DNA from: Fodinibius sediminis | Lineage (GTDB): Bacteria > Bacteroidota > Rhodothermia > Balneolales > Balneolaceae | Direction of reading: 5' to 3' | Assembly (NCBI RefSeq): GCF_900182555.1 | Contig: NZ_FXTH01000004.1 | Coordinates: 248,001 to 312,000 of the forward strand | DNA length: 64,000 nucleotides | In this document: positions 5,528 through 18,297 of the stretch, in pieces | How the letters are laid out: every line of letters starts with the position of its first letter | How positions within the stretch are numbered: position 1 is the stretch's first letter | Made by a program: the position numbers and the translations under genes | Notes under the pieces: generated by a model | Seen by the model: only the letters and a program-made list of their open reading frames with translations | Told to the model about the DNA's origin: nothing | Database searches by the model: none

Positions 5528-8113
5528 CTATAAATTAATATTCTGGCCGAATAATACCGCATTCAGGAACAGCCGGCTTGTGGTGTGCCAATAGCTTCGA
5601 AAGTTGGGGTTGTCGGCAAACAAAATAACCTTTCCCCGCCCCTCCTCCTTAACAACGACAGCCGCAGTGCCGCTTATCTTCTGAAGGTTCTCATTGTTGA
5701 CGAACCCACCCCGCAGCGGAGCTTCCGTATACTTGGCTACTGTGGCATACGGGTTGCTGCTCGGCTTTAGAAACGTATCCGTATCTTTGATAAAGAGCTG
5801 TTCGCGCCCGACAACCCCAAATGCAATGGGATTGGTGGGATCGATGTCGGCTTCCAAGATGACCCCGGGAATCGTATTGGCGAGCCTTCGATCGCTTTGC
5901 TCCTCATAATTGTATCGGGGTGTTTCAGATGTTGAATCACTGGAACTCTTCAGCAGGTCTTCGCTCACGATCTCCTGTCTGATGGCCCACTCAGAGGCTC
6001 CCTCGTCTGTAATCAAGACCCCCCCGCTGTGAACCCAATCCCTGATTTTATCGACGGTCCGGCTGTCCCAGTCATCATATCGACCGTCGACCAGAGCCAA
6101 CGTATTGTAACGGTCCAGCGACACCTCCTCAAACACCTGTTTATCAAGTTTTGTGACATCAAGTTCCAGCCGCTTGTTCAACAGAAACCAGGCCTCCCCC
6201 GCTTCATAGGCTCGCACACCCTTTCCCATGACCAGGGCAACCTCCGGTTTCTCCACCGGCTGAATATTGGTGCTTCCCAGATCGATGCCTGCTTCAGTGA
6301 ATCCTGTTTGCACGCTGTGAAAATCCACCTTGTGCTGTTCTGCTACCTTCTGAACCACAGCATACAAACTGTCGGGAGTGACAGGCTGGCGGGCAACCGG
6401 GATAACAATGGAACCATAGCCGAACCTTTTGACTCCGGAAGCCGTCTGAATGCTGAACGGCCTGTAGGCTACTTTCGAGAGAACCTCTTTCTGCAGCAGT
6501 GCATTGAGGGCGGCCGGCGCACTGTAGTCGGACCAGGATAGCAGGTAGGCATAATCTGAAACCCCACCGTTCACCCGGCCTTCCTGCTTCGGACGTTCCG
6601 TAACCCTGGGTCCCTGTATATCAGAAGCACCGGATTCTATCTCCGCATAGTTGATGCCATAGCCCTGAATCAGCGACCACCCGGTAATATCATAGAATAC
6701 ACTGTCCGGGAAGGATGTGTTGGGCTCAAAAACATCATGGACAACCCGATACCCCACCTGGCCGGTGGGAACCACATAACTGCTCCCCTGCTTGAACTGC
6801 CTGTCGTCCCGTTCCATATCTTGCTGCAGTTCATACACATCGATCCGGTGTGTAAGCAGAAGATCCAGAAACTTATTGGTTAATGTTTCATCGCGCTCAT
6901 TGCCAAAGACATAGGCATCCACCGGCTGTTCAGCGGCTTCATCCAGAGCCGATTCATAAAAATCCCGTTGGTATTCAAAAAGGGTCTTTTTTTCGGCCAC
7001 GGCTGCCCGGACGGTGGCAATACCAGTAACCAGGTGCTTCCGAATGGTTGATTTAAAGGTAACCGGGCCGGATGTACTCTCCTGCACGATTCCCCGGGAG
7101 CTGCCCACCTCAAAGGTGATGCCCACTCCGCCCTGTATATCGGGATAGGTGGAACCGTAGATAGGAGAAATGTTGTCGAAGATCTCTTTTGTCCAGTATA
7201 ATGATCCCACTCCATTGAGCGCTTCCACCTGGTACTCCGCCAATAATGGATTCAGAACCTCATAATGGTACTCCGGGATAATGGGGTTCCATGTTCGCAC
7301 CGGCTTGGTCGGTTCCAGGTAGTAGGTGCTGTTGGTACCCATCTCATGAAAATCGATCTGCACGTTGGGATACCAGCGATGGTAAAAATCAAGACGATTG
7401 GCGCTCTCCTGTTGGGTAACGGCAAACCAATCTCGATTCAGGTCATGCAGAAAGTGGTTGGTCCTTCCTCTCGGCCAGCCCTGCACATGCTCACGGTCGG
7501 CCGGATCAGCAACGGGGGGAAAGGATTTATAGCTGTTATGCCAGTTTGCCGCCCGGTCTCTTCCGTCAGGGTTCTGGGCCGGGTCGATATGGATGACAGC
7601 CTCCTCCAGGAACTTCTGCGTCTCGGCATCCTGGTTGGCTGTGAGGTAATAGGCCGTAAGCAATGCTGCCTCTCCACTGGAGGTTTCATCCCCGTGGACA
7701 CTGTAGTTAAGGGCCACCACTGCCTTGTCGGTTTCCGGATCCAGGGCCGGCGCCGAAGGATCAAGGACCGACAGATGCGACTGCCGTATTTCATCGAGGT
7801 TCTCCTGGTTAGCCGGGGATGTGATGGTTAGCACAACCTGGGGACGCAACTCATAGGTCTGACCGATGACCTGGAATGAAACCTTATTGGAGAGACGTGC
7901 CAACTCCTTGAAATAGGAGACGATGCGATCATGACGGGTAAAATGAGAACCGATCGAATAGCCCAGGAACTCCTCCGGGGTTGGAATCTGCTGATCAAAC
8001 CGGTCAGCATCGGAAAAATAATAGTCCTGCTGGGCTGATGCCCTCCCCAACAGAGTTGTAAACAGGATGGCAGTCAGCACTATCGTCTGACTTATTTGTT
8101 TGACTAAATTCAT
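5528..8113 (-). CDS. secreted M14-family zinc carboxypeptidase
   Basis: 861 residues from the ATG at 8113 (an in-frame ATG at 8137 adds 8). A Sec signal peptide ends near ASAQ. The peptidase M14 domain follows. In numbering from 8137, zinc ligands are His148 and Glu151 in HGDE and His264 in DFHEMG; NPDGRDR matches the substrate Arg region and Glu343 in GITFEVGSS is the likely catalytic Glu. The C-terminal third (about 630-869) has ALVDGRYDDW and GGVLITDEGA, resembling a class I glutamine-amidotransferase-like fold that often follows this M14 subtype. It trims C-terminal residues from peptides in the periplasm or at the surface. Third gene after susC and susD, 36 nt from susD, implying that the SusCD pair imports peptides. 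Confidence 0.88.
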   Translation of the reverse strand: MNLVKQISQTIVLTAILFTTLLGRASAQQDYYFSDADRFDQQIPTPEEFLGYSIGSHFTRHDRIVSYFKELARLSNKVSFQVIGQTYELRPQVVLTITSPANQENLDEIRQSHLSVLDPSAPALDPETDKAVVALNYSVHGDETSSGEAALLTAYYLTANQDAETQKFLEEAVIHIDPAQNPDGRDRAANWHNSYKSFPPVADPADREHVQGWPRGRTNHFLHDLNRDWFAVTQQESANRLDFYHRWYPNVQIDFHEMGTNSTYYLEPTKPVRTWNPIIPEYHYEVLNPLLAEYQVEALNGVGSLYWTKEIFDNISPIYGSTYPDIQGGVGITFEVGSSRGIVQESTSGPVTFKSTIRKHLVTGIATVRAAVAEKKTLFEYQRDFYESALDEAAEQPVDAYVFGNERDETLTNKFLDLLLTHRIDVYELQQDMERDDRQFKQGSSYVVPTGQVGYRVVHDVFEPNTSFPDSVFYDITGWSLIQGYGINYAEIESGASDIQGPRVTERPKQEGRVNGGVSDYAYLLSWSDYSAPAALNALLQKEVLSKVAYRPFSIQTASGVKRFGYGSIVIPVARQPVTPDSLYAVVQKVAEQHKVDFHSVQTGFTEAGIDLGSTNIQPVEKPEVALVMGKGVRAYEAGEAWFLLNKRLELDVTKLDKQVFEEVSLDRYNTLALVDGRYDDWDSRTVDKIRDWVHSGGVLITDEGASEWAIRQEIVSEDLLKSSSDSTSETPRYNYEEQSDRRLANTIPGVILEADIDPTNPIAFGVVGREQLFIKDTDTFLKPSSNPYATVAKYTEAPLRGGFVNNENLQKISGTAAVVVKEEGRGKVILFADNPNFRSYWHTTSRLFLNAVLFGQNINL

Positions 8114-8149: not shown

Positions 8150-9454
8150 TTAAAGATTTATATTTGGATTGGAACGAATTTCAGTGATCGTTATCGGGAA
8201 AAAGGTTCCGGTGCTTACGCGACTTTCCAGCCACTCGGGAGAAGCCTGCCCGAACCGGTAGAGATCCGCCAGCCGACGCCCCTGTAAAAACAAGTTTGTT
8301 CGGCGGCTGTGTTCAAGCATCTCCTCTGCCGGCACCTGTCCCGTATAATCCGAGAGACCGTCCAGGTGACGAATAGCGTTGATCGCATTCCTGAAAGCCG
8401 GCCTGTCCTTCCCGGCAAGTGCATCCTCGGCTATAATGAGATGCAGCTCGCGCGCCGAAACAACCACAAAATCAGCGTATTCATTGGCAGTCACGAACTC
8501 ATCGATAGCCGATGCCAGGGCCGGGGCCGGAATCTCGTCCACAGGATCCAGGAGTGTTACCTTGTCCACTTTCGCATTATCGGCCGTTGGCTGAATGTAA
8601 GCATCCCCCACCCGGAGCTCCAGGCGCTCATTCACCTGATAGGCCATCGCGTTGGACTCTGTCTCAGGCGTGGTCTGTAGCTGATAGCGCCAGTCGCTGC
8701 CACTGCCCACCATATCCAGTGCCGCTTTGGCATCCTCTGCGGCAGCACTGCTTTGAACCAGGATGTCGTTATCCTCAACCGCAGGGTTCAATTTACTCCA
8801 GAGTGCCTTTGAATAATGCACACGGGCACGCAGGGCCAGCAGCCGGGCCTGCCATTCTTCCGAACCGTCGGGGCTGAGCTCCAGTCCCTTGCTGAGATAG
8901 TCTATAGCGACATCATAGAGTTCATCCATATTCGCTTCCCCTATGGCCGGAGACGCCGCCTCGCGATCCGAGAGTGCAAAATTATCGAAGAGATCTGCGA
9001 TGGTGGTATAGATGACCGCCCCGTAAAAGTAACTGCGGACAAGCGGTCGTTCATCTTCAAGGGTCCCTTCCGACCGGAATCCCTCCAGGCGCCGGATGGC
9101 TTCATCAGCCGTCCATCGCGCTTCACCGACGTACTGGAAGCCCACATCCACAAATTCATTCAGCGGATCGTCCACCTCCCCCTGGTCAAGCTGTTGCCAG
9201 GCATCACGCGTTCCTATCCAGGTAAGTTCGTCAGTAGCCGTGGAGTAAGGACCGAGGATCTCACCCAGCGCATTCGTCAGGGTTGCCTCCGCCCCATTGG
9301 CAATGGCCGGTGCGGCCACCGGATTATCCAGATCATCCTCCACCAGGTTGTTTGGATTATTAACGTCCAGCACATCACACCCTGTAATACCGTAGCCGGT
9401 AACAACCAACAGCAGGATTAAAATTTTTGATATTGTTTTCTTGCTAAAACTCAT
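8150..9454 (-). CDS. SusD/RagB-family surface lipoprotein (peptide-type)
   Basis: 434 residues. Lipoprotein signal with lipobox YGITGC (Cys26), then NNPNNLVEDDLDNPVAAPAIANGAEA, typical of the SusD N-terminus. Helical TPR-like segments follow, and the end (RRTNLFLQGRRLADLYRFG) matches the RagB/SusD C-terminal signature. SusD proteins are the extracellular lid of a SusC barrel and bind the ligand before import. This one is shorter than most glycan SusDs and belongs to the type often paired with peptidases. It sits between susC and the M14 peptidase with 48-nt and 36-nt gaps, so one transcript is likely. Confidence 0.88.
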   Translation of the reverse strand: MSFSKKTISKILILLLVVTGYGITGCDVLDVNNPNNLVEDDLDNPVAAPAIANGAEATLTNALGEILGPYSTATDELTWIGTRDAWQQLDQGEVDDPLNEFVDVGFQYVGEARWTADEAIRRLEGFRSEGTLEDERPLVRSYFYGAVIYTTIADLFDNFALSDREAASPAIGEANMDELYDVAIDYLSKGLELSPDGSEEWQARLLALRARVHYSKALWSKLNPAVEDNDILVQSSAAAEDAKAALDMVGSGSDWRYQLQTTPETESNAMAYQVNERLELRVGDAYIQPTADNAKVDKVTLLDPVDEIPAPALASAIDEFVTANEYADFVVVSARELHLIIAEDALAGKDRPAFRNAINAIRHLDGLSDYTGQVPAEEMLEHSRRTNLFLQGRRLADLYRFGQASPEWLESRVSTGTFFPITITEIRSNPNINL

Positions 9455-9502: not shown

Positions 9503-12500
9503 CTAGATTCCAATACTGAGAGTAAGCGTTATTCTGCGGGGCAGCGGCATGTTCCAGGCATCCGTTCCGAGCAGGAAATTATTCTCGAGAGCCGACCCTC
9601 CATCCCTTCCAATGGCATTTACTTCCGGATCTACGCCGGGATATTTAGACCACAGCCACAGATTTCGACCGGAAGCCGTTACCGAGAGGTTGCGTACCTT
9701 CAGCTTTTCGGCCCATTCATCGGAAATATTATAGGTCAGGCTCACCTCCCGCAGGCGCAGGAAATCAGCCTGCTGTATGGTATTGAGGCCGGAAAAGGGA
9801 GCAAGGGCCAGTTGTTCATTGATCCATTTGTCAGCTGCGGCCAGCCGTACCTCCGCGCTGTTCTGCGGAACATACTCACCGTTGACACCGCCGGTTATAT
9901 AATCCCGCTCCACCGCTGCCGTAGCCGGGGTATTGCGGCCGATACCGGCACTGCGCTGCCGGAAAGCATCGGTCAGATTATTGACATAAAAATTGCCGGT
10001 ACGGTATTCGAAGAGGGTATACAGTCGAAAATCATGGAACGTCAGTGTCCCCCCGAAAGCCCCCTGCCAGTCGGGCGTTGGCTTGCCCAGGTAATGATCT
10101 AGGGGATCGCCGTCACCGTCGGCATCGGCGAGCAGCACAAAATTATTGAGAGCATTGAGACTGGCCGTCCCGGGGGTGAGCGAGGCCAGATAGTCGAGTA
10201 CCAGCTGGCGCGAAGCGGGCTGTCCGGCTTCTATACCGTCCACTTCCCTTCCCAGCTCCTGGAGCAGCCCCTTTCGATCCAGGGGTAAAAAGCCTTTTTC
10301 TACTTCCCGGAGCTGAGCCCCGAAGTTCGTGGCCGGAGCGTATCCCTCCTTCAGAAATTGGCGATACCGCGGATAGGTTCCACCCACTTTGATAGGTGGA
10401 GCTCCTCCCAGGGATGCGACCTGTTCCCACAGATATGATCCGCTTACAAAAAGATCCGCCGAAAAATCTTCTCCGTCGAAGAGGTTGGCATCCAGGCTCA
10501 ATTCAACCCCTTTGCCCTCAAGCCGGCCGATGTTATCCAGCTGCGTTCGGATAAATCCGCCGGTTGGCGCAAACTGCCGCTGAACCAGTGCGTCCGTAAC
10601 TGTACGATCCCAGTAAGTGCCTTCAAAAACGAAACGTTCATCAAAAAATCCGGCATCCAGCCCCAGCTCATACTCCGTTGATATTTCAGGTTTCAGTTCA
10701 GGATTTCCCAGGTTATCGGGAACAATACCGGGGCCCGTTGCCGAGGTCTGCGAACCGTAGGTAGTCAAGGCGTCAAAAGCACCCGGCTGCAGTCCGGACT
10801 GGCCAACGGCAGCGCGCAATCTAAGGGAAGAAACGAAAGGCAGGCCATTCCAGAAAGGCGCATCGGACACCACCAGCGATGCCGAGGCCTTGGGATAAAA
10901 TACGCCATTAAATTCTGCGCCAAAGGCACTATGAAGGTCATAGCGACCGCCAAAGGTGACAAAGAGGTAATCATCAAATCCGATCTGCTCTTGTCCGAAG
11001 AATCCAACTTCGGTTTGTTCGATATATGATTCGCCGAGGGACTGAATAGCAGCCGCCCCGGAGACGTTCAGACCGGGTCCTGGAAAATCCACTGCTTCAC
11101 CGCTTCGTACCAGCGTGCGCTCGGAAAACAGCTGAGATCCCAAAATCAGGGTTGATTCAAAACGCTCACTCAGGCGGTTGCTCAGTGTTCCCTTCACGTC
11201 CACTGTCAGGTTCAGGTTCGACCGATCAGATGTCCGCCGGGCTCCCTCCACTTCCGTATTTGCATAATTGTTGATGTTCCATCCGAAAGGGCGCCGGGAT
11301 TCGCTGAACTGGCTGGTATAGTCAACACCGAAGGTTCCATCAAGCGTTAGATTCTGCAGCGGCCGATAGTTAATGCCCGTACTGCCGTTAAAATGGCGTA
11401 CATCCTGGCTGACGGTCTGCTGAAGTCGCTCCTCGACCGTGGCCGTATAGGAAGCCCCCGACGGATTCCCATAACTCACCAGTTCGGGCTTGCTGTGGAT
11501 GGCTCCAGAGGTGACCCCGAAATTATTATTCCCGGTCTGAAATGTTTCAAGGCTCGTGCTTGAAAAACCGGACGTGACCCGCAATTGCAATTTATCAGCC
11601 GGGAAGATGTTGACATTGGCCGTGGCCTGTGATTTGCTCAGAGCATCATTGGCCAGGGGACCCGTCGCCGCGGAAAAAGGATAGCCATCGCCGCTCAGCG
11701 GTCCGTTCTCACCTGACCATCGGCCGTTGACAAAATAAGTTATTCCTTCAGATCCTCCGCTTACAGATCCGGAGTATTCCTGCGTGTACCCCGTCTCAAA
11801 CAGTTGGTGGACATAATTTTTCCGGACCAGCTCGTAGGGCTGAATACTTCCCCCCAGGTAATTCTCCATGGTATCGGCCTGGGCCTGTGTACGTGCAAAA
11901 CCCGTGTTGTCCGGAAATGTTTTGGGATAACTGACCGTGCCCTGAGTCACCTCGAAATTGATGCGGGGCTCGCTAATCTGCCCGTTCTTAGTGAAAATCT
12001 GGATTACGCCATTTGAGGCTTCTGTACCATAAAGCGTGGCTGCAGCAGCCCCCTTGAGAATTTCCACCCGATCAATTGACGCCGGATTGATATCATCCAG
12101 CCGCGAAGGTGACGCACCGCCGCCGGCACTCACGGAGCCTCCGAAGCCGCCCCCTCGATCCACCCGCACCCCGTCGATCAGGATAATGGGTTCATTGCTC
12201 TGCGAAAGGCTGGCTGATCCCCGGATGCGGATGCGGGACCCTTCGCCCGTTACGCCGCTCGAGGGCATACCCACGAGACCGGGAATACGTCCCTGCACCA
12301 CCTCCGAGAAATTCTGAAGGGGGACATCCTCAAGGTCTTCCGTTCCTACCGAGCTGATCGAGTTGCCAACCTTTTTGCGTTCTACCGGTCCGCCGGCACC
12401 AGTGACCACAATTTCCTCCAGGTTAACAGAACCAGATGTGAGGGCAAAGTTGAGCGTCAGTGTTTCTTTTTGCTCAACGGTAACCTCCTTCTCGCTCGTA

Positions 12501-12739
12501 CGGTAACCCACAAACTGGGCCACCACGGTATAGGAACCGGCTTCGACGTTACGAATGCTGTATTTCCCGTCTGTATCAGTGGCACTTCCCATATTGGTAC
12601 CCCGGATCATAACGTTGACAGCAGGCAGCGTCTCTTTCGTTTTGCTGTCGGTCACAGTACCCGTGATTGTACTTTGTGCATGGCCCGCTGTGGGAATACT
12701 TGCAATAATACCTAAGAATATTAATACCGCTTGCTTCAT
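9503..12739 (-). CDS. SusC/RagA-family TonB-dependent transporter (peptide-type)
   Basis: 1078 residues from the ATG at 12739 (MKQAVLIFLGIIAS), which gives a clean signal peptide ending at GHAQ. A longer frame to 12823 would run into the terminator hairpin and is rejected. Domains: CarboxypepD_reg-like/DUF4480 barrel-lid domain (about 22-110), TonB-box region (LEEIVVTGAGG), SusC-specific plug (RIRIRGSASLSQSNEPIILIDG; VEILKGAAAATLYGTEASNGVI) and a C-terminal 22-strand barrel ending in ITLTLSIGI. It moves its ligand across the outer membrane using TonB. Likely controlled by the attenuator-like leader at 12814-12989. Confidence 0.93.
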   Translation of the reverse strand: MKQAVLIFLGIIASIPTAGHAQSTITGTVTDSKTKETLPAVNVMIRGTNMGSATDTDGKYSIRNVEAGSYTVVAQFVGYRTSEKEVTVEQKETLTLNFALTSGSVNLEEIVVTGAGGPVERKKVGNSISSVGTEDLEDVPLQNFSEVVQGRIPGLVGMPSSGVTGEGSRIRIRGSASLSQSNEPIILIDGVRVDRGGGFGGSVSAGGGASPSRLDDINPASIDRVEILKGAAAATLYGTEASNGVIQIFTKNGQISEPRINFEVTQGTVSYPKTFPDNTGFARTQAQADTMENYLGGSIQPYELVRKNYVHQLFETGYTQEYSGSVSGGSEGITYFVNGRWSGENGPLSGDGYPFSAATGPLANDALSKSQATANVNIFPADKLQLRVTSGFSSTSLETFQTGNNNFGVTSGAIHSKPELVSYGNPSGASYTATVEERLQQTVSQDVRHFNGSTGINYRPLQNLTLDGTFGVDYTSQFSESRRPFGWNINNYANTEVEGARRTSDRSNLNLTVDVKGTLSNRLSERFESTLILGSQLFSERTLVRSGEAVDFPGPGLNVSGAAAIQSLGESYIEQTEVGFFGQEQIGFDDYLFVTFGGRYDLHSAFGAEFNGVFYPKASASLVVSDAPFWNGLPFVSSLRLRAAVGQSGLQPGAFDALTTYGSQTSATGPGIVPDNLGNPELKPEISTEYELGLDAGFFDERFVFEGTYWDRTVTDALVQRQFAPTGGFIRTQLDNIGRLEGKGVELSLDANLFDGEDFSADLFVSGSYLWEQVASLGGAPPIKVGGTYPRYRQFLKEGYAPATNFGAQLREVEKGFLPLDRKGLLQELGREVDGIEAGQPASRQLVLDYLASLTPGTASLNALNNFVLLADADGDGDPLDHYLGKPTPDWQGAFGGTLTFHDFRLYTLFEYRTGNFYVNNLTDAFRQRSAGIGRNTPATAAVERDYITGGVNGEYVPQNSAEVRLAAADKWINEQLALAPFSGLNTIQQADFLRLREVSLTYNISDEWAEKLKVRNLSVTASGRNLWLWSKYPGVDPEVNAIGRDGGSALENNFLLGTDAWNMPLPRRITLTLSIGI

Positions 12740-12813
12740 TATTTTGATGACTCCTGGTTTGGTTAGAAAGTTGGGTTTGGTTGAATCCAGGAGAGCAGGC
12801 GGGAAATAAAAAA

Positions 12814-12840
12814 GCCCACTCACCTGGTCGATGAGTGGGC
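12814..12840 (-). terminator. terminator hairpin in the susC leader (putative attenuator)
   Basis: GCCCACTCA (12814-12822 on +) pairs perfectly with TGAGTGGGC (12832-12840). On the minus strand the 9-bp stem is followed by TTTTTT. It lies about 75 nt before the susC ATG and more than 450 nt after the preceding gene, and it directly follows a Cys/Met-rich short reading frame. Its upstream arm contains ACTCATC, complementary to GATGAGT inside that frame (12894-12900), which could form a competing antiterminator. Confidence 0.8.
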
Positions 12841-12863
12841 TTAAAATTTGTGAGGCTAAATCG

Positions 12864-12962
12864 CTATGTTTTTGCGAACTCTTTCAAGCAGTTACTCATC
12901 CAACGGGTATGGCACATACACATGACATGCATTTGCATATCCATGCAGCAACAATCGCACAT
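12864..12962 (-). CDS. putative 32-residue Cys/Met-rich leader peptide
   Basis: ATG at 12962, TAG at 12866-12864. The peptide begins M-C-D-C-C-C-M-D-M-Q-M-H and carries 6 Cys plus a C-x-C pair within its first 17 codons (7 Cys and 7 Met in 32). A GTG in the same frame at 12989 would give 41 residues starting V-K-N-Y. The stop codon is 23 nt before the terminator hairpin. I recognise no protein family. The composition and place match a ribosome-stalling leader that senses charged tRNA-Cys and/or tRNA-Met, as his and trp leaders sense their amino acids. No clear Shine-Dalgarno is visible, so translation is inferred. Confidence 0.55.
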   Translation of the reverse strand: MCDCCCMDMQMHVMCMCHTRWMSNCLKEFAKT

Positions 12963-13142
12963 ACAGATGTTGGAGTTATAATTTTTCACTGCTTGCTCAA
13001 AAGAATTAAGCCGTTAAAAATTTCAGTTCAAATGGTACCATCATTTTTTAAAAAACACAACATCCGTTCAAAATAGCCGCAGAACGGATTTTCCGCCACG
13101 ACACCCACACCCGCTAACCTATTGTTTTACCTTAACTTGCCA

Positions 13143-13298: not shown

Positions 13299-14198
13299 CT
13301 ATCGAGCGGTTTTTCCCAGGGCCTGACGGGCGCGGATAACTCGATCGGTCGTAATGCCATCTACGCCCTGTTCAGCCATTGCGGTTATATCGGCCGAATC
13401 ATTGACCGTCCAAACAAAAATTTTAAATCCTGCCTGGTGGCTGGCTTCAACAAGTTCCGGAGTCACCCCCTGGTAGTGAACATCAAGACCATCCAGGTTA
13501 TGCTTGCGCACCTGATCCAGGAGATTCGTGCTGATCGCCTGGTACTCGCCTGTATCGGCATCGCGGGGTGCAGAACGCAACCAGTAAGCGGGCACATCGG
13601 GCATCTGCTCTTTACTGGCTTTTACAACCTCCAGACCAAAACTTATGACAACCATTTGATCTTTCTTGCCACTCTGCTCTATTACTTCTTTGATATGGGA
13701 AATAGCGCGGGCTGAATCCTTTACCTCAATAAACAACCGTTTCTTCGGCGGCACCGAGGCTACAACTTCCTCCAGAAATGGAATTTGTTCTCCTGCAAAT
13801 TTCTCCCCTTTGAAACTTCCCACATCCACGGTTCGCAGTTTCTCAGAGTCCGTTTTCTTTACCGGCAGATCCTTGTCGCCTGTACGTTTTGTTGTCTTGT
13901 CGTGAATGGCCACAACCCGGTTATCAGCAGACAAATAAACATCAACCTCCACCGCATCGGCATCCTTTTCCCAGGCCGACTGTACCGAAGCCATGGTATT
14001 TTCAGGCTTTGCATACGAGTCGCCCCGATGGGCAACAATCTCGATTTGCGCATCTGCAGCATTCGGTGGATCGGGCTTTTCCATGCCACAGCCATGGAAA
14101 ACAAAAAGACTGGAAATCAGAAACAGAATAACGGCCGTTAAAAAAAAATCATTTGCGTTTGTAGTCAGCATATCGATTGTACAATTAGTCATGTTCAT
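13299..14198 (-). CDS. glycerophosphodiester phosphodiesterase, lipoprotein
   Basis: 299 residues (an internal ATG at 14171 is also possible). A hydrophobic N-terminus ends in FHGC (Cys37), so a membrane-anchored periplasmic lipoprotein is likely. GDPD domain: HRG (57-59), PENT (65-68), the metal ligands Glu84 and Asp86 in EVDVY, and HDKT (from His99). It hydrolyses glycerophosphodiesters such as glycerophosphocholine to glycerol-3-phosphate plus alcohol. It lies 13 nt after glpF and completes a glycerol/glycerophosphodiester operon: the periplasmic enzyme releases G3P or glycerol, which the other genes take up and oxidise. Confidence 0.88.
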   Translation of the reverse strand: MNMTNCTIDMLTTNANDFFLTAVILFLISSLFVFHGCGMEKPDPPNAADAQIEIVAHRGDSYAKPENTMASVQSAWEKDADAVEVDVYLSADNRVVAIHDKTTKRTGDKDLPVKKTDSEKLRTVDVGSFKGEKFAGEQIPFLEEVVASVPPKKRLFIEVKDSARAISHIKEVIEQSGKKDQMVVISFGLEVVKASKEQMPDVPAYWLRSAPRDADTGEYQAISTNLLDQVRKHNLDGLDVHYQGVTPELVEASHQAGFKIFVWTVNDSADITAMAEQGVDGITTDRVIRARQALGKTAR

Positions 14199-14211
14199 TT
14201 CAGATTGCGAA

Positions 14212-14982
14212 TCATGAAGACAGAAGGAGATACAAACCCGCGGCCAAAAACCCGCCTGCTATTGGTGCTGCCACGGGAACCCAGGAATACGCCCAGTCGC
14301 TGCTCCCCTTGTTGGAGATAGGTAAAAGAGCATGGGCAATGCGCGGCCCAAGGTCACGGGCCGGATTGATGGCATAGCCCGTAGGACCTCCCAGGGATAA
14401 ACCGATCCCCAGCACCAGCAGGCCTACGGGAAGGGCGGAAAGTGCTCCCAGACCAAAACCCACTTCATTTCCGTCGATCACTATTGTTTCCAGCAGCTCT
14501 CCATTGGCGCCTATAAAACCCGGCGAGGCCAAGTATAAAACCCCGAACACCAACAGCAAGGTGCCTATGGTTTCTGTCATAAAATTTGCAGGATAATTTC
14601 TAATATTGGGAATCGTACTATGGCACGCCAGGATAAGGCTCTCATCCCTGGTTTCATGGAAGTGGTCTTTGTAGGACAGCCAGACCAGGAAGGCTCCCAG
14701 GACTCCTCCAATAATCTGGGCCACAATATAAGCGGGCACAAGAGACCATTCAAACAATCCAGCCATGGCCAGACCCACTGTTACGGCTGGATTAATATGG
14801 GCTCCACTAAATTGTCCCATGGTAAAAACGGCTACGAAAACGGCAATGCCCCACCCCCACGTTATCACGATCCATCCGCCGTCCTTACCATTCGTTTTAT
14901 TTAACAATACATTGGCAACGACCCCATTGCCAAGTAGAATAAGTATTGCGGTACCAATAATTTCTGCAATAAAAGGTGACAT
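14212..14982 (-). CDS. glpF: glycerol facilitator, MIP family
   Basis: 256 residues from the ATG at 14982, which has GGGGA 6 nt upstream; a TTG further upstream at 14997 is less likely. Six transmembrane segments and two half-helices. In numbering from 14997, NPA is at 69-71 and NPARD at 211-215; the Asp after the second NPA is the marker of glycerol facilitators as opposed to water-only aquaporins. It carries glycerol through the inner membrane. Its position between glpD and the phosphodiesterase gene supports GlpF. Confidence 0.9.
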   Translation of the reverse strand: MSPFIAEIIGTAILILLGNGVVANVLLNKTNGKDGGWIVITWGWGIAVFVAVFTMGQFSGAHINPAVTVGLAMAGLFEWSLVPAYIVAQIIGGVLGAFLVWLSYKDHFHETRDESLILACHSTIPNIRNYPANFMTETIGTLLLVFGVLYLASPGFIGANGELLETIVIDGNEVGFGLGALSALPVGLLVLGIGLSLGGPTGYAINPARDLGPRIAHALLPISNKGSSDWAYSWVPVAAPIAGGFLAAGLYLLLSS

Positions 14983-14997
14983 CAATTTTCCCCACAA

Positions 14998-15219
14998 AAT
15001 TTATTAATGGTTACTTTTACGAAAGAACAGGCCTTTACCCGACCTCTCCCTGCGACCGCTGATTCTGCAGTCTGACGGAGAGGATATGAGCCAGGCAACC
15101 AGAGAATGTTTCATAGGATCGTAAAAACCGTTGCCCGGCGGCTTGTAAAGACCGTTTTAAAAACAATAAGTAAAAAAGTAAGGCAAAGCCTTCACATAAT
15201 CCCGTTGCTCCCGCCTTAT
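14998..15219. other. intergenic region between glpD and glpF
   Basis: 222 bp within an otherwise compact operon. It contains the 14-mer GTAAAAAAGTAAGG (15170-15183), which recurs near 63.48 kb. glpF may therefore have its own promoter here. No gene is seen. Confidence 0.4.
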
Positions 15220-16779
15220 TTATGATATCTGATACGATTTCGCAAGTTTTTTGTAGTCATCAATCTGATTTGCAATCCAGCGTTCATCATGGCCTGCCTC
15301 TTCAGCCATCAGCCGGGCCACCTCCGGGGCCATCTCAACACTCGCTTTTGCATCCAGAAACAGCGCCCGGATGCGTCGTGCACTAAAATCCTCCACCGTC
15401 ATGGCCATCTCATTCCGGGTAGCCCATACCACTTCAGCTTTGATATAAGGAAACCGGTCGTGAAGCGGTTCGCCCAATTTCGGATTCTTTCTGACTAACT
15501 CTTTTATTTTTGACCTGTCACTGCCGTAATGAGACAGGGGATCTTCCTTGGCGATATCCTTATCCCATCCATGAATCCTAAGTGTTTTCGTCACGCATAC
15601 CTTGTCATCCAGCCCCCCCACGACAGCGGCCCGGTCCACTACATCCTCTGCCATCTTGCGATAGGTTGTCCATTTGCCCCCGGCAATGGTAACCAACCCC
15701 GAGGATGATACCATAAGACAGTGGTCACGCGAAATTTCCGAGGTATTTTCTTTGCCCCCGGTTTTAACAAGGGGACGCAGTCCAGCAAAGACACTCCTTA
15801 TATCTGACCGCGAAACCTTCTTCGACAAGTATTCGGAGGCATGCCTGAGGATAAAATCAATCTCCTCCTCCATAGCTTCAGGTTCATCCGTAATATCATT
15901 CACCGGGGTGTCGGTCGTACCAACCATCACCCTGCCATACCATGGCAGGGCAAATAAAATGCGATCATCTGTTGTTTTGGGGATCATAACAGCCGTTTCT
16001 CCCGGTAGAAAATGCTTGTCAAGCACAATATGCACTCCCTGGCTGGCTTTGATAACAGGCCTTGAATCCGACCGATCCATCTGTAGAATAGTGTCGGTAA
16101 ATACCCCTGTTGCATTGATAACGGTTCGCCCTTCGATCTCAAATTCCTCTCCACTGAGCATATCCCGGGCGGTCACTCCGCTGACTTTTCGAGAGGTACT
16201 CAATAATCCAGTAACTTTCATATAATTAATAGGTACGCCGCCATGTTCTGCACTTGTTCTGGCAAGATTTACGGCAAGCCTTGAATCATCAAACTGCCCA
16301 TCATGATACCTGATGCTACCCCGTAGTCCCTCGGTCCGGAGCGTCGCTGCTTTTTCCAACGTGGTTCGGGCAGACAAGCGGTTCGAGGGACCAAAGCCAA
16401 GTTTACCAGAGAGGATATCATATATTCTCAAGCCAAGCCAGTAATAGGCTCCCCGCCACCAGTTGTAATAGGGTACTATAAAGGATTGATTGTGCACCAG
16501 GTGAGGGGCGTTTTGTATCAGCCGTCCCCGTTCTTTAAGTGCCTCCAACACCAGTGGTACGTCACCCTGCTCCAGATAACGCACCCCACCGTGTACCAGC
16601 TTGGTGGATCGGCTGGACGTACCTTTGGCAAAATCGTCCATCTCCAGTAGAAGAGTTTTATAACCCCGGGAGGCCGCATCGACAGCCGTTCCCAGCCCGG
16701 TGGCGCCTCCTCCAACAATGATGATATCCCATAATCCGGCCTCTTCCCTGACCCGCTGGACCATTTGTACACGTTTCAT
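15220..16779 (-). CDS. glpD: FAD-dependent glycerol-3-phosphate dehydrogenase
   Basis: 519 residues. The FAD-binding loop IIVGGGATGLGTAVDAASRG is at residues 20-39, then TSSRSTKLVHGGVRYLEQ, the GlpD/GlpA hallmark. The C-terminal DAO_C domain (about 390-500) is present. It oxidises sn-glycerol-3-phosphate to DHAP at the inner face of the cytoplasmic membrane, passing electrons to quinone. A Shine-Dalgarno GGAG lies 6 nt before the ATG. It starts 24 nt after glpK, so the two are co-transcribed. Confidence 0.94.
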   Translation of the reverse strand: MKRVQMVQRVREEAGLWDIIIVGGGATGLGTAVDAASRGYKTLLLEMDDFAKGTSSRSTKLVHGGVRYLEQGDVPLVLEALKERGRLIQNAPHLVHNQSFIVPYYNWWRGAYYWLGLRIYDILSGKLGFGPSNRLSARTTLEKAATLRTEGLRGSIRYHDGQFDDSRLAVNLARTSAEHGGVPINYMKVTGLLSTSRKVSGVTARDMLSGEEFEIEGRTVINATGVFTDTILQMDRSDSRPVIKASQGVHIVLDKHFLPGETAVMIPKTTDDRILFALPWYGRVMVGTTDTPVNDITDEPEAMEEEIDFILRHASEYLSKKVSRSDIRSVFAGLRPLVKTGGKENTSEISRDHCLMVSSSGLVTIAGGKWTTYRKMAEDVVDRAAVVGGLDDKVCVTKTLRIHGWDKDIAKEDPLSHYGSDRSKIKELVRKNPKLGEPLHDRFPYIKAEVVWATRNEMAMTVEDFSARRIRALFLDAKASVEMAPEVARLMAEEAGHDERWIANQIDDYKKLAKSYQIS

Positions 16780-16803
16780 GATCTGCTCCCTAGATTTTTG
16801 GAT

Positions 16804-18297
16804 CTACTTCTCCGACCAGTAGATGGCTGTTTCCAGGGCCCGGTTCCATCCGTTGCGCAGCTCATCGACTTCCGCTTCAGATTTCTGAGGAGTAAAGGTT
16901 TTATCTTCCTGCCACTGACTGTTAATCTCTTCGTGGTCCTTCCAGTAACCGACAGCCAGTCCCGCCAGGTAGGCAGCCCCCAGAGCGGTCGTTTCCAGGA
17001 TTTTGGGACGTATGACGGGAACCCGAAGTAAATCCGATTGAAATTGCATAAGCAGATCATTGGCTGTTGCCCCTCCATCTACCCGCAGCTCCTTGATTTC
17101 TATGCCCGAATCGGCTTCCATCGAGGCTATCACATCCGTGGTCTGGTAGGCAATACTCTCGAGGGCGGCCCGGGCAATATGACCGGCATTGGCTCCCCTC
17201 GTCAGCCCTACCATGGTACCGCGGGCATGCTGGTTCCAGTGCGGAGCTCCGAGGCCGGAAAAAGCGGGCACAAGATAAACCCCGTTGTTATCCTTGACAG
17301 AACCAGCCAGCTTTTCCACTTCAGACGCATGGCGGATGATGCCGAGTTCATCACGCAACCACTGTACCACCGCTCCTGCTATGAAAATACTTCCTTCCAG
17401 TGCATACTCAACCTTGCCGTCAATCTCCCATGCTATGGTCGTAAGCAGGTTGTTCTTGGAGGTTATCGGCTTCTCACCGGTGTTCATCACCATGAAACAA
17501 CCCGTACCGTAGGTATTTTTGACCATCCCCGGATCAATACATCGCTGGCCAAAGAGGGCGGCCTGCTGATCACCCGCTATACCCGCTATGGGTATATCCA
17601 CGGCTAAATTCCTTGTCTTGCCATAAACCTCGCTCGATGATTTAACTTTGGGAAGCAGACTTTCCGGGATGTCCAGCAGATCCAGGATCTCCCGATCCCA
17701 CTTCCCCTCATGGATATTATAGAGCATGGTTCGGGAGGCATTGGTGGCATCGGTGACGTGTGTTTCTCCCCGCGTAAAATTCCAAATCAACCAGGAATCG
17801 ATGGTACCGAAAGCAAGCTCCCCGGCCCGGGCCCGCTGTCGCACGCCCTCTACGTTGTCCAGAATCCATTTGATCTTGGTGGCAGAAAAATAGGCATCGA
17901 TAATCAACCCTGTCTTTTCCCGAATTTTCTCAACCAGTCCTTCTTTCTCTTTCAGCTGATCACAAAATTCGGAAGTACGTCGATCCTGCCAGACAATGGC
18001 ATTATAGACAGGCTTTCCCGTTTTCCGATCCCATATCACCGTCGTTTCGCGCTGATTGGTGATCCCGATGGCGGCAATATCTTCAGCGTGCAGCCCTGCT
18101 TCAGAAATGGCTTCGGCGACAACCGATGACTGCGTTGACCAAATCTTTGACCCATCATGTTCCACCCAGCCGGCTTTCGGATAGATCTGTTTAAATTCTT
18201 TTTGAGCTATTGACTGTACGCTTCCCCGCTTATCAAAAATGATTGCACGTGAGCTCGTGGTGCCCTGATCCACCGCCAAAATATATTTTTCTGCCAT
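16804..18297 (-). CDS. glpK: glycerol kinase
   Basis: 497 residues, the standard length. FGGY kinase: [12 protein letters not shown] at the N-terminus, [31 protein letters not shown] for glycerol and ATP binding, and [18 protein letters not shown] in the C-terminal domain. It phosphorylates glycerol to G3P with ATP in the cytoplasm. RBS AAGGGA lies 5-6 nt before the ATG. A palindromic operator candidate sits 20-40 nt upstream of the start (18317-18336), between gntR and glpK. Confidence 0.96.

Follow-up and report, generated by a model that had tools for sequence, protein, structure and literature searches.

A short minus-strand frame rich in Cys and Met codons, followed by an intrinsic terminator, precedes a susC-susD-M14 peptidase operon in the window, i.e. 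the complete 64-kb stretch of Fodinibius sediminis DNA analysed here. We consider this element very probably a ribosome-mediated transcription attenuator that senses the supply of cysteine and methionine, with a probability of roughly 0.86. An attenuator had already been proposed in the preliminary description of the locus, and this reading is now supported by the susC copies of relatives, by copies in front of sulfur genes in the same genome and by folds of the leader RNA with a stalled ribosome. As the same device stands before sfnG and before a sulfite reductase operon in this genome, sulfur amino acids are indicated as the signal by association.

The leader, the terminator and the operon in the window

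The leader peptide frame (12864-12989, minus strand) runs from a GTG at 12989 to a stop codon ending at 12864. It comprises 41 codons with eight Cys and seven internal Met, so that 15 of the 40 internal codons are Cys or Met, and it has homologous leaders in relatives. An alternative ATG at 12962 would give a frame of 32 codons; our recount agrees with the preliminary description on both starts and on the seven Cys and seven Met of the shorter form. The 41-codon version is likelier, because the nearest leader, that of F. roseus, shares the NYNSN start and has its ATG just one codon upstream of the position of this GTG. Over the susC-type leaders Cys accounts for 15% and Met for 20% of the residues, compared to 0.8% and 2.6% in the long frames of the genome. 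The window leader is thus a short frame rich in the codons of the sensed amino acids, as a ribosome-mediated transcription attenuator requires.

Transcription of the leader may start from a candidate weak sigma70-like promoter (TTGTGT-17-TACCAT, 13032-13060, minus strand), which lies 42 nt 5' of the leader start and matches the consensus at 7 of 12 positions. A stricter promoter scan gave no site at the window locus. At the equivalent position in the related genomes G005, G007, G030, G057 and G078 the matches amount to 11, 10, 9, 6 and 7 of 12, respectively.

The terminator (12812-12842, minus strand, as are all elements of the leader) has a 13-bp stem and a 5-nt loop and lies between the frame and the first gene; a terminator is present in 35 of 35 leaders compared. 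Its 5' arm AAGCCCACTCATC (region 3, 12830-12842) contains ACTCATC at 12830-12836, and its 3' arm GGTGAGTGGGCTT (region 4, 12812-12824) leads into a six-T tail (12808-12813), of which the first two Ts are counted in the stem, too. The preliminary description had given a 9-bp terminator with a six-T tail 23 nt behind the stop codon. Six Ts do follow the core, while the stem comprises 13 rather than 9 bp; the 23 nt are correct for the distance to the GCCC core, and the full stem begins 21 nt after the stop. The core ends 75 nt 5' of the susC ATG at 12739, as had been stated, and the end of the hairpin is about 73 nt from the susC start.

Inside the frame, the strand GATGAGT (region 2, 12894-12900) is exactly complementary to ACTCATC at 12830-12836 and represents the putative antiterminator strand; this complementarity, too, was located as first described. 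Region 1, its predicted upstream partner in the free-RNA fold, is TTATAACTC (12973-12981). Conservation of the exact match holds in part, since it is common only to the window and F. roseus copies; the other susC copies present GATAGTGG or GATAGCGG against CCRCTCATC and pair with a bulge. In the window copy region 2 ends 27 nt 5' of the stop codon and may stay uncovered when the ribosome is at the stop, which we count against the attenuation reading.

The combination of frame and hairpin is not readily obtained by chance. When the 559-nt intergenic region was shuffled 2000 times with its dinucleotides preserved, no shuffle contained a frame with 10 or more Cys/Met at 30% density, nine contained a stem of 12 bp or longer, and none had frame and stem both in place. 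Under strict limits, which ask for six or more Cys/Met at 22% density and a stem of 9 bp or longer, the window copy is the sole such place in the 64-kb window, and no place with frame and terminator was found in 100 kb from the same genome. The loose limits later applied to relatives gave one match in the identical 100 kb. With Rfam 15 at the gathering score only tRNA was detected in the 64-kb window, and no family matches the leader/terminator element.

The first gene of the operon, susC (9503-12739, minus strand), encodes a SusC/RagA-family TonB-linked outer membrane protein (TIGR04056 509.5 bits, cut-off 368; Pfam plug and barrel). The susD-like gene (8150-9454, minus strand) is named by its position and by a weak hit on a structure of the SusD superfamily (E 0.096); Pfam (at E 0.001) and NCBIfam gave no match, and the gene is kept behind susC in five relatives with 58-63% identity. 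The last gene (5528-8089, minus strand, start near 8089) encodes an M14-family zinc peptidase (PF00246 E 5.6e-17), for which no solved structure matched at E 0.001. We infer that the importer brings in peptides, and the control shared with sulfur genes suggests that it serves sulfur acquisition or the use of its substrate as a sulfur source. At 13299-18297 of the window a GDPD gene (PF03009) adjoins frames whose sequences resemble aquaporin, glycerol-3-phosphate dehydrogenase and glycerol kinase.

Related leaders before susC and sulfur operons

SusC orthologs with 67-71% identity are found in G005, G007 (F. salsisoli) and G030, where they are preceded by Cys/Met leaders with near-identical terminators. 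In these genomes and in G057 (Gracilimonas mengyeensis) leader and terminator lie upstream of susC-susD-M14 operons, with 58-63% identity for susD and 63-69% for the M14 gene behind susC. In G078, a Balneolaceae MAG, they precede susC-susD on a contig that ends after susD. The comparison of orthologous loci suggested in the preliminary description therefore came out in favour of the element: Cys/Met richness, terminator and antiterminator strand are retained in all five genomes. The distant susC-susD pairs of G021 and G012 (52-55% SusC identity) have no leader, and for G001, G002, G004, G008 and G024, which have an M14 gene with 65-69% identity, neither susC or susD nearby nor a leader was found.

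A search for the terminator pattern in 92 genomes of the family returned nine places in seven genomes, all nine T-tailed and behind a Cys/Met frame. Six of them precede susC operons, one precedes the F. roseus gene and two lie before sfnG operons, once in the window's own genome. In a collection of species genomes, which may omit the window's own genome, a Cys/Met frame accompanies 5 of 57 pattern-bearing stretches, all five from Balneolaceae, and because only these carry the frame, the idea that the element is merely a common terminator was rejected. Searching 146 genomes with the leader peptide gave matches in 33 at E up to 10, with one clear homolog beyond the own genome, in F. roseus DSM 21986 (G011). 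This nearest relative of the window attenuator precedes an isochorismatase-family gene and not susC (L088:5385-6342).

The leader peptides vary strongly in sequence and length (22-41 residues) and retain their richness in Cys and Met; the order of these residues is not conserved and no CXXC is fixed. Cys/Met columns are better kept than other columns in 8 of the 11 leader pairs compared. They are not better kept between the window and F. roseus leaders (9/16 vs 12/18).

The window's own genome carries leader and terminator also before sfnG, the gene of a dimethylsulfone monooxygenase (TIGR04021 578 bits, cut-off 383) that is followed by two flavin-reductase-family genes, and before a sulfurtransferase-sulfite reductase operon. 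The latter leader is located at C4:237027-237134 on the window's contig, about 24 kb from the susC copy. It is followed by genes for a sulfurtransferase-like protein, for sulfite reductase (785 bits with NF010029, whose cut-off is 457) and for uroporphyrinogen methyltransferase (312 bits against a cut-off of 198), as well as by a cysH-like fragment that scores below the cut-off. Divergent from this operon are cysteine synthase-like, desampylase-like and MoeB/ThiF-like genes (L231:4606-7532), a possible sulfur-carrier route to cysteine. That an attenuator controls genes which make or acquire the sensed amino acid fits both sister operons, sfnG and sulfite reductase; the susC-susD-M14 operon may do the same.

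A SfnG search of 244 genomes of the class (E 1e-130) matched 14. In eight of these a Cys-rich frame with a terminator lies upstream of the gene; the script picked up four of them, and the other four were recognised by reading the sequence, with the frame confirmed. The remaining six have none. These six form a second sfnG lineage (L152-L157) with a conserved 5' element within about 130 nt before the ATG, by eye a CCCGG...CCGGG hairpin and then GCCGG...ACTTTT.AGCGGAAG (or a variant)...CCGGC. No Rfam family scored above the gathering score at these loci and no weak match falls on the element, which is possibly an undescribed riboswitch.

A profile search with the leader peptides, in which low-scoring Cys-rich frames were kept only if a terminator came next, led to NMCCMMCCMMM-like runs before the sulfurtransferase-sulfite reductase operon; a match in G072 (E 0.0015) lies inside a gene and was rejected. 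Sulfite reductase itself was searched in 238 genomes of the class (E 1e-15) and matched in 33. All 19 Balneolaceae genomes with a match have the leader before the operon, one read by eye and one on a separate contig. Eighteen of these loci were fetched; the loose-limit script found the switch in 17, and that of G079 was read by eye. In G038 the sulfite reductase gene lies at a contig end and a leader precedes a sulfurtransferase gene on another contig. Of 14 loci outside the Balneolaceae, three (G099, G117, G118) carry a leader, one (G240) is doubtful and ten show none. A possible more distant member of the leader family precedes sulfite reductase in a genome from a different family of the class, where a Cys-rich frame (ECVCLHACVCVCVC) is accompanied by a terminator (L255:6426-6536, reverse complement).

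The set of 35 leaders used for comparison includes the three of the own genome and the sulfite-reductase-type leader of G007, which was added by hand. The leaders of G079, G038 and G018, located before sulfurtransferase or sulfite reductase, stand outside this set for the duplex, fold, covariation and composition tests.

Pairing and folding of the leader RNA

In 17 sulfite-reductase leaders an 8-nt strand inside the frame is complementary to the 5' arm of the terminator, and strand and arm occur in matching variants (GGTAGTGG with CCRCTACC, GATAGCGG with CCGCTATC, GATAGTGG with CCACTATC and GGCAGTGG with CCGCTGCC). With the antiterminator strand defined by motifs that were written after viewing the leaders, so that counts of pairing and codon position are not blind, standard pairs (G-U included) occupy 135 of 136 antiterminator:arm cells in these copies, the exception being GGTAGGGG in G003, and in 24 leaders 272 of the 291 Cys/Met codons come before the strand. 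Two-sided changes are seen at three strand/arm positions of the sulfite-reductase copies (in 2, 1 and 1 genomes).

Both the duplex-energy test against codon shuffles and the stalled-ribosome fold test are independent of these motifs. The duplex energy beats the codon shuffles in 17 of 17 sulfite-reductase copies (P of 0.02 or less). For the window copy it is no better than the shuffles (P=0.26), and no susC-type copy is significant (P 0.22-0.89). Significance is likewise missed by the F. roseus copy (P 0.19), by all sfnG copies (0.07-0.78) and by the three deeper sulfite-reductase copies (0.06-0.22).

For the stalled fold, nascent RNA with the ribosome on a Cys/Met codon and the 3' arm still unmade was considered, assuming a footprint of 11 nt past the A codon and leaving kinetics aside. 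In this model, which treats all RNA behind the ribosome as unavailable and thereby favours the attenuation reading, 6 of 6 susC-type and 17 of 17 sulfite-reductase-type leaders pass, a pass meaning that 2 of 40 codon shuffles or fewer reach the value of the leader. Only 2 of 8 sfnG-type copies pass, as do 2 of 3 deeper sulfite-reductase copies; the single F. roseus copy fails. Mean predicted sequestration of the 5' arm with the ribosome on Cys/Met is 0.81 for the susC and 0.77 for the sulfite-reductase copies. With the ribosome at the stop it is 0.01 and 0.06; the codon-shuffled controls give 0.40 and 0.34.

The value of the window copy is reached by none of its 40 codon shuffles. For all A-site positions tested as far as codon 26, which is the final Cys of the run, its arm is sequestered (0.81), and beyond the run the values are 0.54, 0.19, 0.41 and 0.04 at codons 27, 29, 31 and 33. 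With the ribosome on a Cys/Met codon, region 2 pairs with the arm with a probability of 0.96. For the window copy the fold thus predicts an antiterminator that forms upon stalling and excludes the terminator. In the free-RNA fold, which uses the motif-defined strand, GATGAGT of the window copy pairs upstream with region 1 with a probability of 0.55. This 1:2 pairing is at or above 0.5 in 6 of 6 susC and 9 of 17 sulfite-reductase copies; it is not predicted for the F. roseus copy (0/1) and for 8 of 17 sulfite-reductase copies, that of the own genome included.

These predictions can be combined into a mechanism, in which RNA polymerase would make the leader with a ribosome trailing on the 41-codon frame. 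When tRNA-Cys and tRNA-Met are charged, the ribosome would pass the Cys/Met run and region 2 would be unavailable to region 3; the region 3:4 terminator would then form and transcription would stop before susC. When Cys or Met is short, the ribosome would stall in the run and cover region 1; region 2 could then pair with region 3, and transcription would continue into susC-susD-M14. If no ribosome starts, pairing of regions 1 and 2 would favour termination again. A shortage of cysteine or methionine would in this way probably switch on the importer.

A leader of comparable build is found in a member of the family, where MRKNNVNRIWWWPGLT, with three Trp codons (WWW), and a similar terminator are followed by trpE (TIGR00564 above cut-off; L286:1454-1601). 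By its sequence this is likely a trp attenuator of similar design. Codon identity therefore matches the pathway, and on this one case the Cys/Met codons can be read as a sulfur amino-acid sensor. Besides this leader, the covariance-model search brought up numerous ordinary terminators scoring about 50 bits or less, and L285-L293, its best-matching loci among the matches listed, hold no Cys/Met frame.

Alternative readings, known attenuators and sulfur supply

A Cys/Met-rich sequence upstream of a TonB-linked transporter gene could also point to a metal sensor. There is precedent in the copper-responsive CruR, an upstream frame before the TonB-dependent transporter gene bfrG that acts by premature termination. 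According to the accessible text of PMC9426467, however, CruR is a 145-residue DUF2946 protein, a type defined by CXXC and C-terminal RAPP motifs and a length of about 145 residues, and the termination is Rho-dependent. The window leader was rejected as a copper uORF of the CruR/DUF2946 type, as it has 41 residues, no RAPP and Cys positions that are not fixed. Moreover, the sister copies precede sulfite reductase and sfnG and no copper genes, the order of Cys and Met varies without a fixed CXXC, and an intrinsic terminator with an antiterminator that covaries in the sulfite-reductase copies differs from the Rho-dependent Bordetella case as far as that text describes it. Metal sensing is thus very unlikely.

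The frame has the appearance of a coding sequence, and the hairpin would suffice on its own as a terminator, as expected if the frame encodes a functional small protein with just a terminator behind it. This is hard to reconcile with peptides that diverge (22-41 residues) while Cys/Met richness and, usually, a terminator-complementary strand persist, and with the 272 of 291 Cys/Met codons upstream of the antiterminator strand, and we give a small protein equally little credence. Finally, any stall before codon 27 frees region 2 in the fold model, and the leader might sense general translation stress with Cys and Met merely as slow codons. The association of the leaders with sulfate assimilation and organosulfur use, together with the similarly built Trp-codon leader before trpE, argues against such a general signal and makes it the most improbable of these alternatives. 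Sensing of cysteine and methionine supply by attenuation remains our preferred reading.

Ribosome-mediated attenuation is a known kind of control, with the leaders of the trp, his and leu operons as classical cases. The element described here has the same regulatory-codon-rich frame, intrinsic terminator and mutually exclusive antiterminator, and a 1:2 hairpin is predicted in 6 of 6 susC copies. It differs in using Cys and Met codons together and in that its targets include a SusCD importer and a peptidase rather than a biosynthetic operon. Actinobacterial Cys leader peptides were reportedly treated by Canestrari et al. in 2020, and the mycobacterial ones are cited as a case of translation attenuation. 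In the actinobacterial cys operon leaders, short frames with runs of Cys codons likewise precede sulfur genes, but the accessible text mentions no conserved terminator (PMC1262725). Ribosome-mediated attenuation was also proposed for the uORFC-8-2 motif upstream of cysS in Rhodobacterales, which resembles the present element in that a short frame with Cys codons precedes a terminator-like stem and a U run; it differs, in the accessible text, in having two tandem Cys codons, in controlling cysteinyl-tRNA synthetase and in belonging to alpha-proteobacteria (PMC8632094).

Within the Bacteroidota, main-text passages of transcriptome studies describe leader-peptide attenuation before amino-acid biosynthesis operons of Flavobacterium psychrophilum, the amino acids being unnamed (PMC9723704), and short frames reminiscent of leader peptides in Bacteroides thetaiotaomicron (PMC7366714). 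These passages differ from the present case in naming neither a Cys/Met leader nor a SusCD target, and a Cys case in the supplements is possible. Bacteroides papers pairing 'SusC' with 'leader peptide' were rejected as precedent, as in the text accessible these words mean signal peptides. The literature covered, mostly titles and beginnings of abstracts among the matches listed, drawn from main texts and with few subscription papers, describes a Cys/Met leader for none of sulfite reductase, sfnG and SusCD.

Taken further, we lean slightly towards a sulfur regulon of the Balneolaceae, reaching neighbouring families, that is run in cis by Cys/Met attenuators which duplicate and move between operons. 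It would include operons for sulfate assimilation and dimethylsulfone use and an isochorismatase-family gene, and through one copy SusC-SusD-M14 would have become an outer-membrane route by which sulfur amino acids are scavenged from peptides. The related leaders number 35, and since the arms covary in 17 of these, the mechanism is directly testable in relatives such as F. roseus, F. salsisoli and Gracilimonas mengyeensis. For the SusCD importer the leader provides a regulatory clue to its purpose, which may be the supply of sulfur amino acids rather than of carbon.
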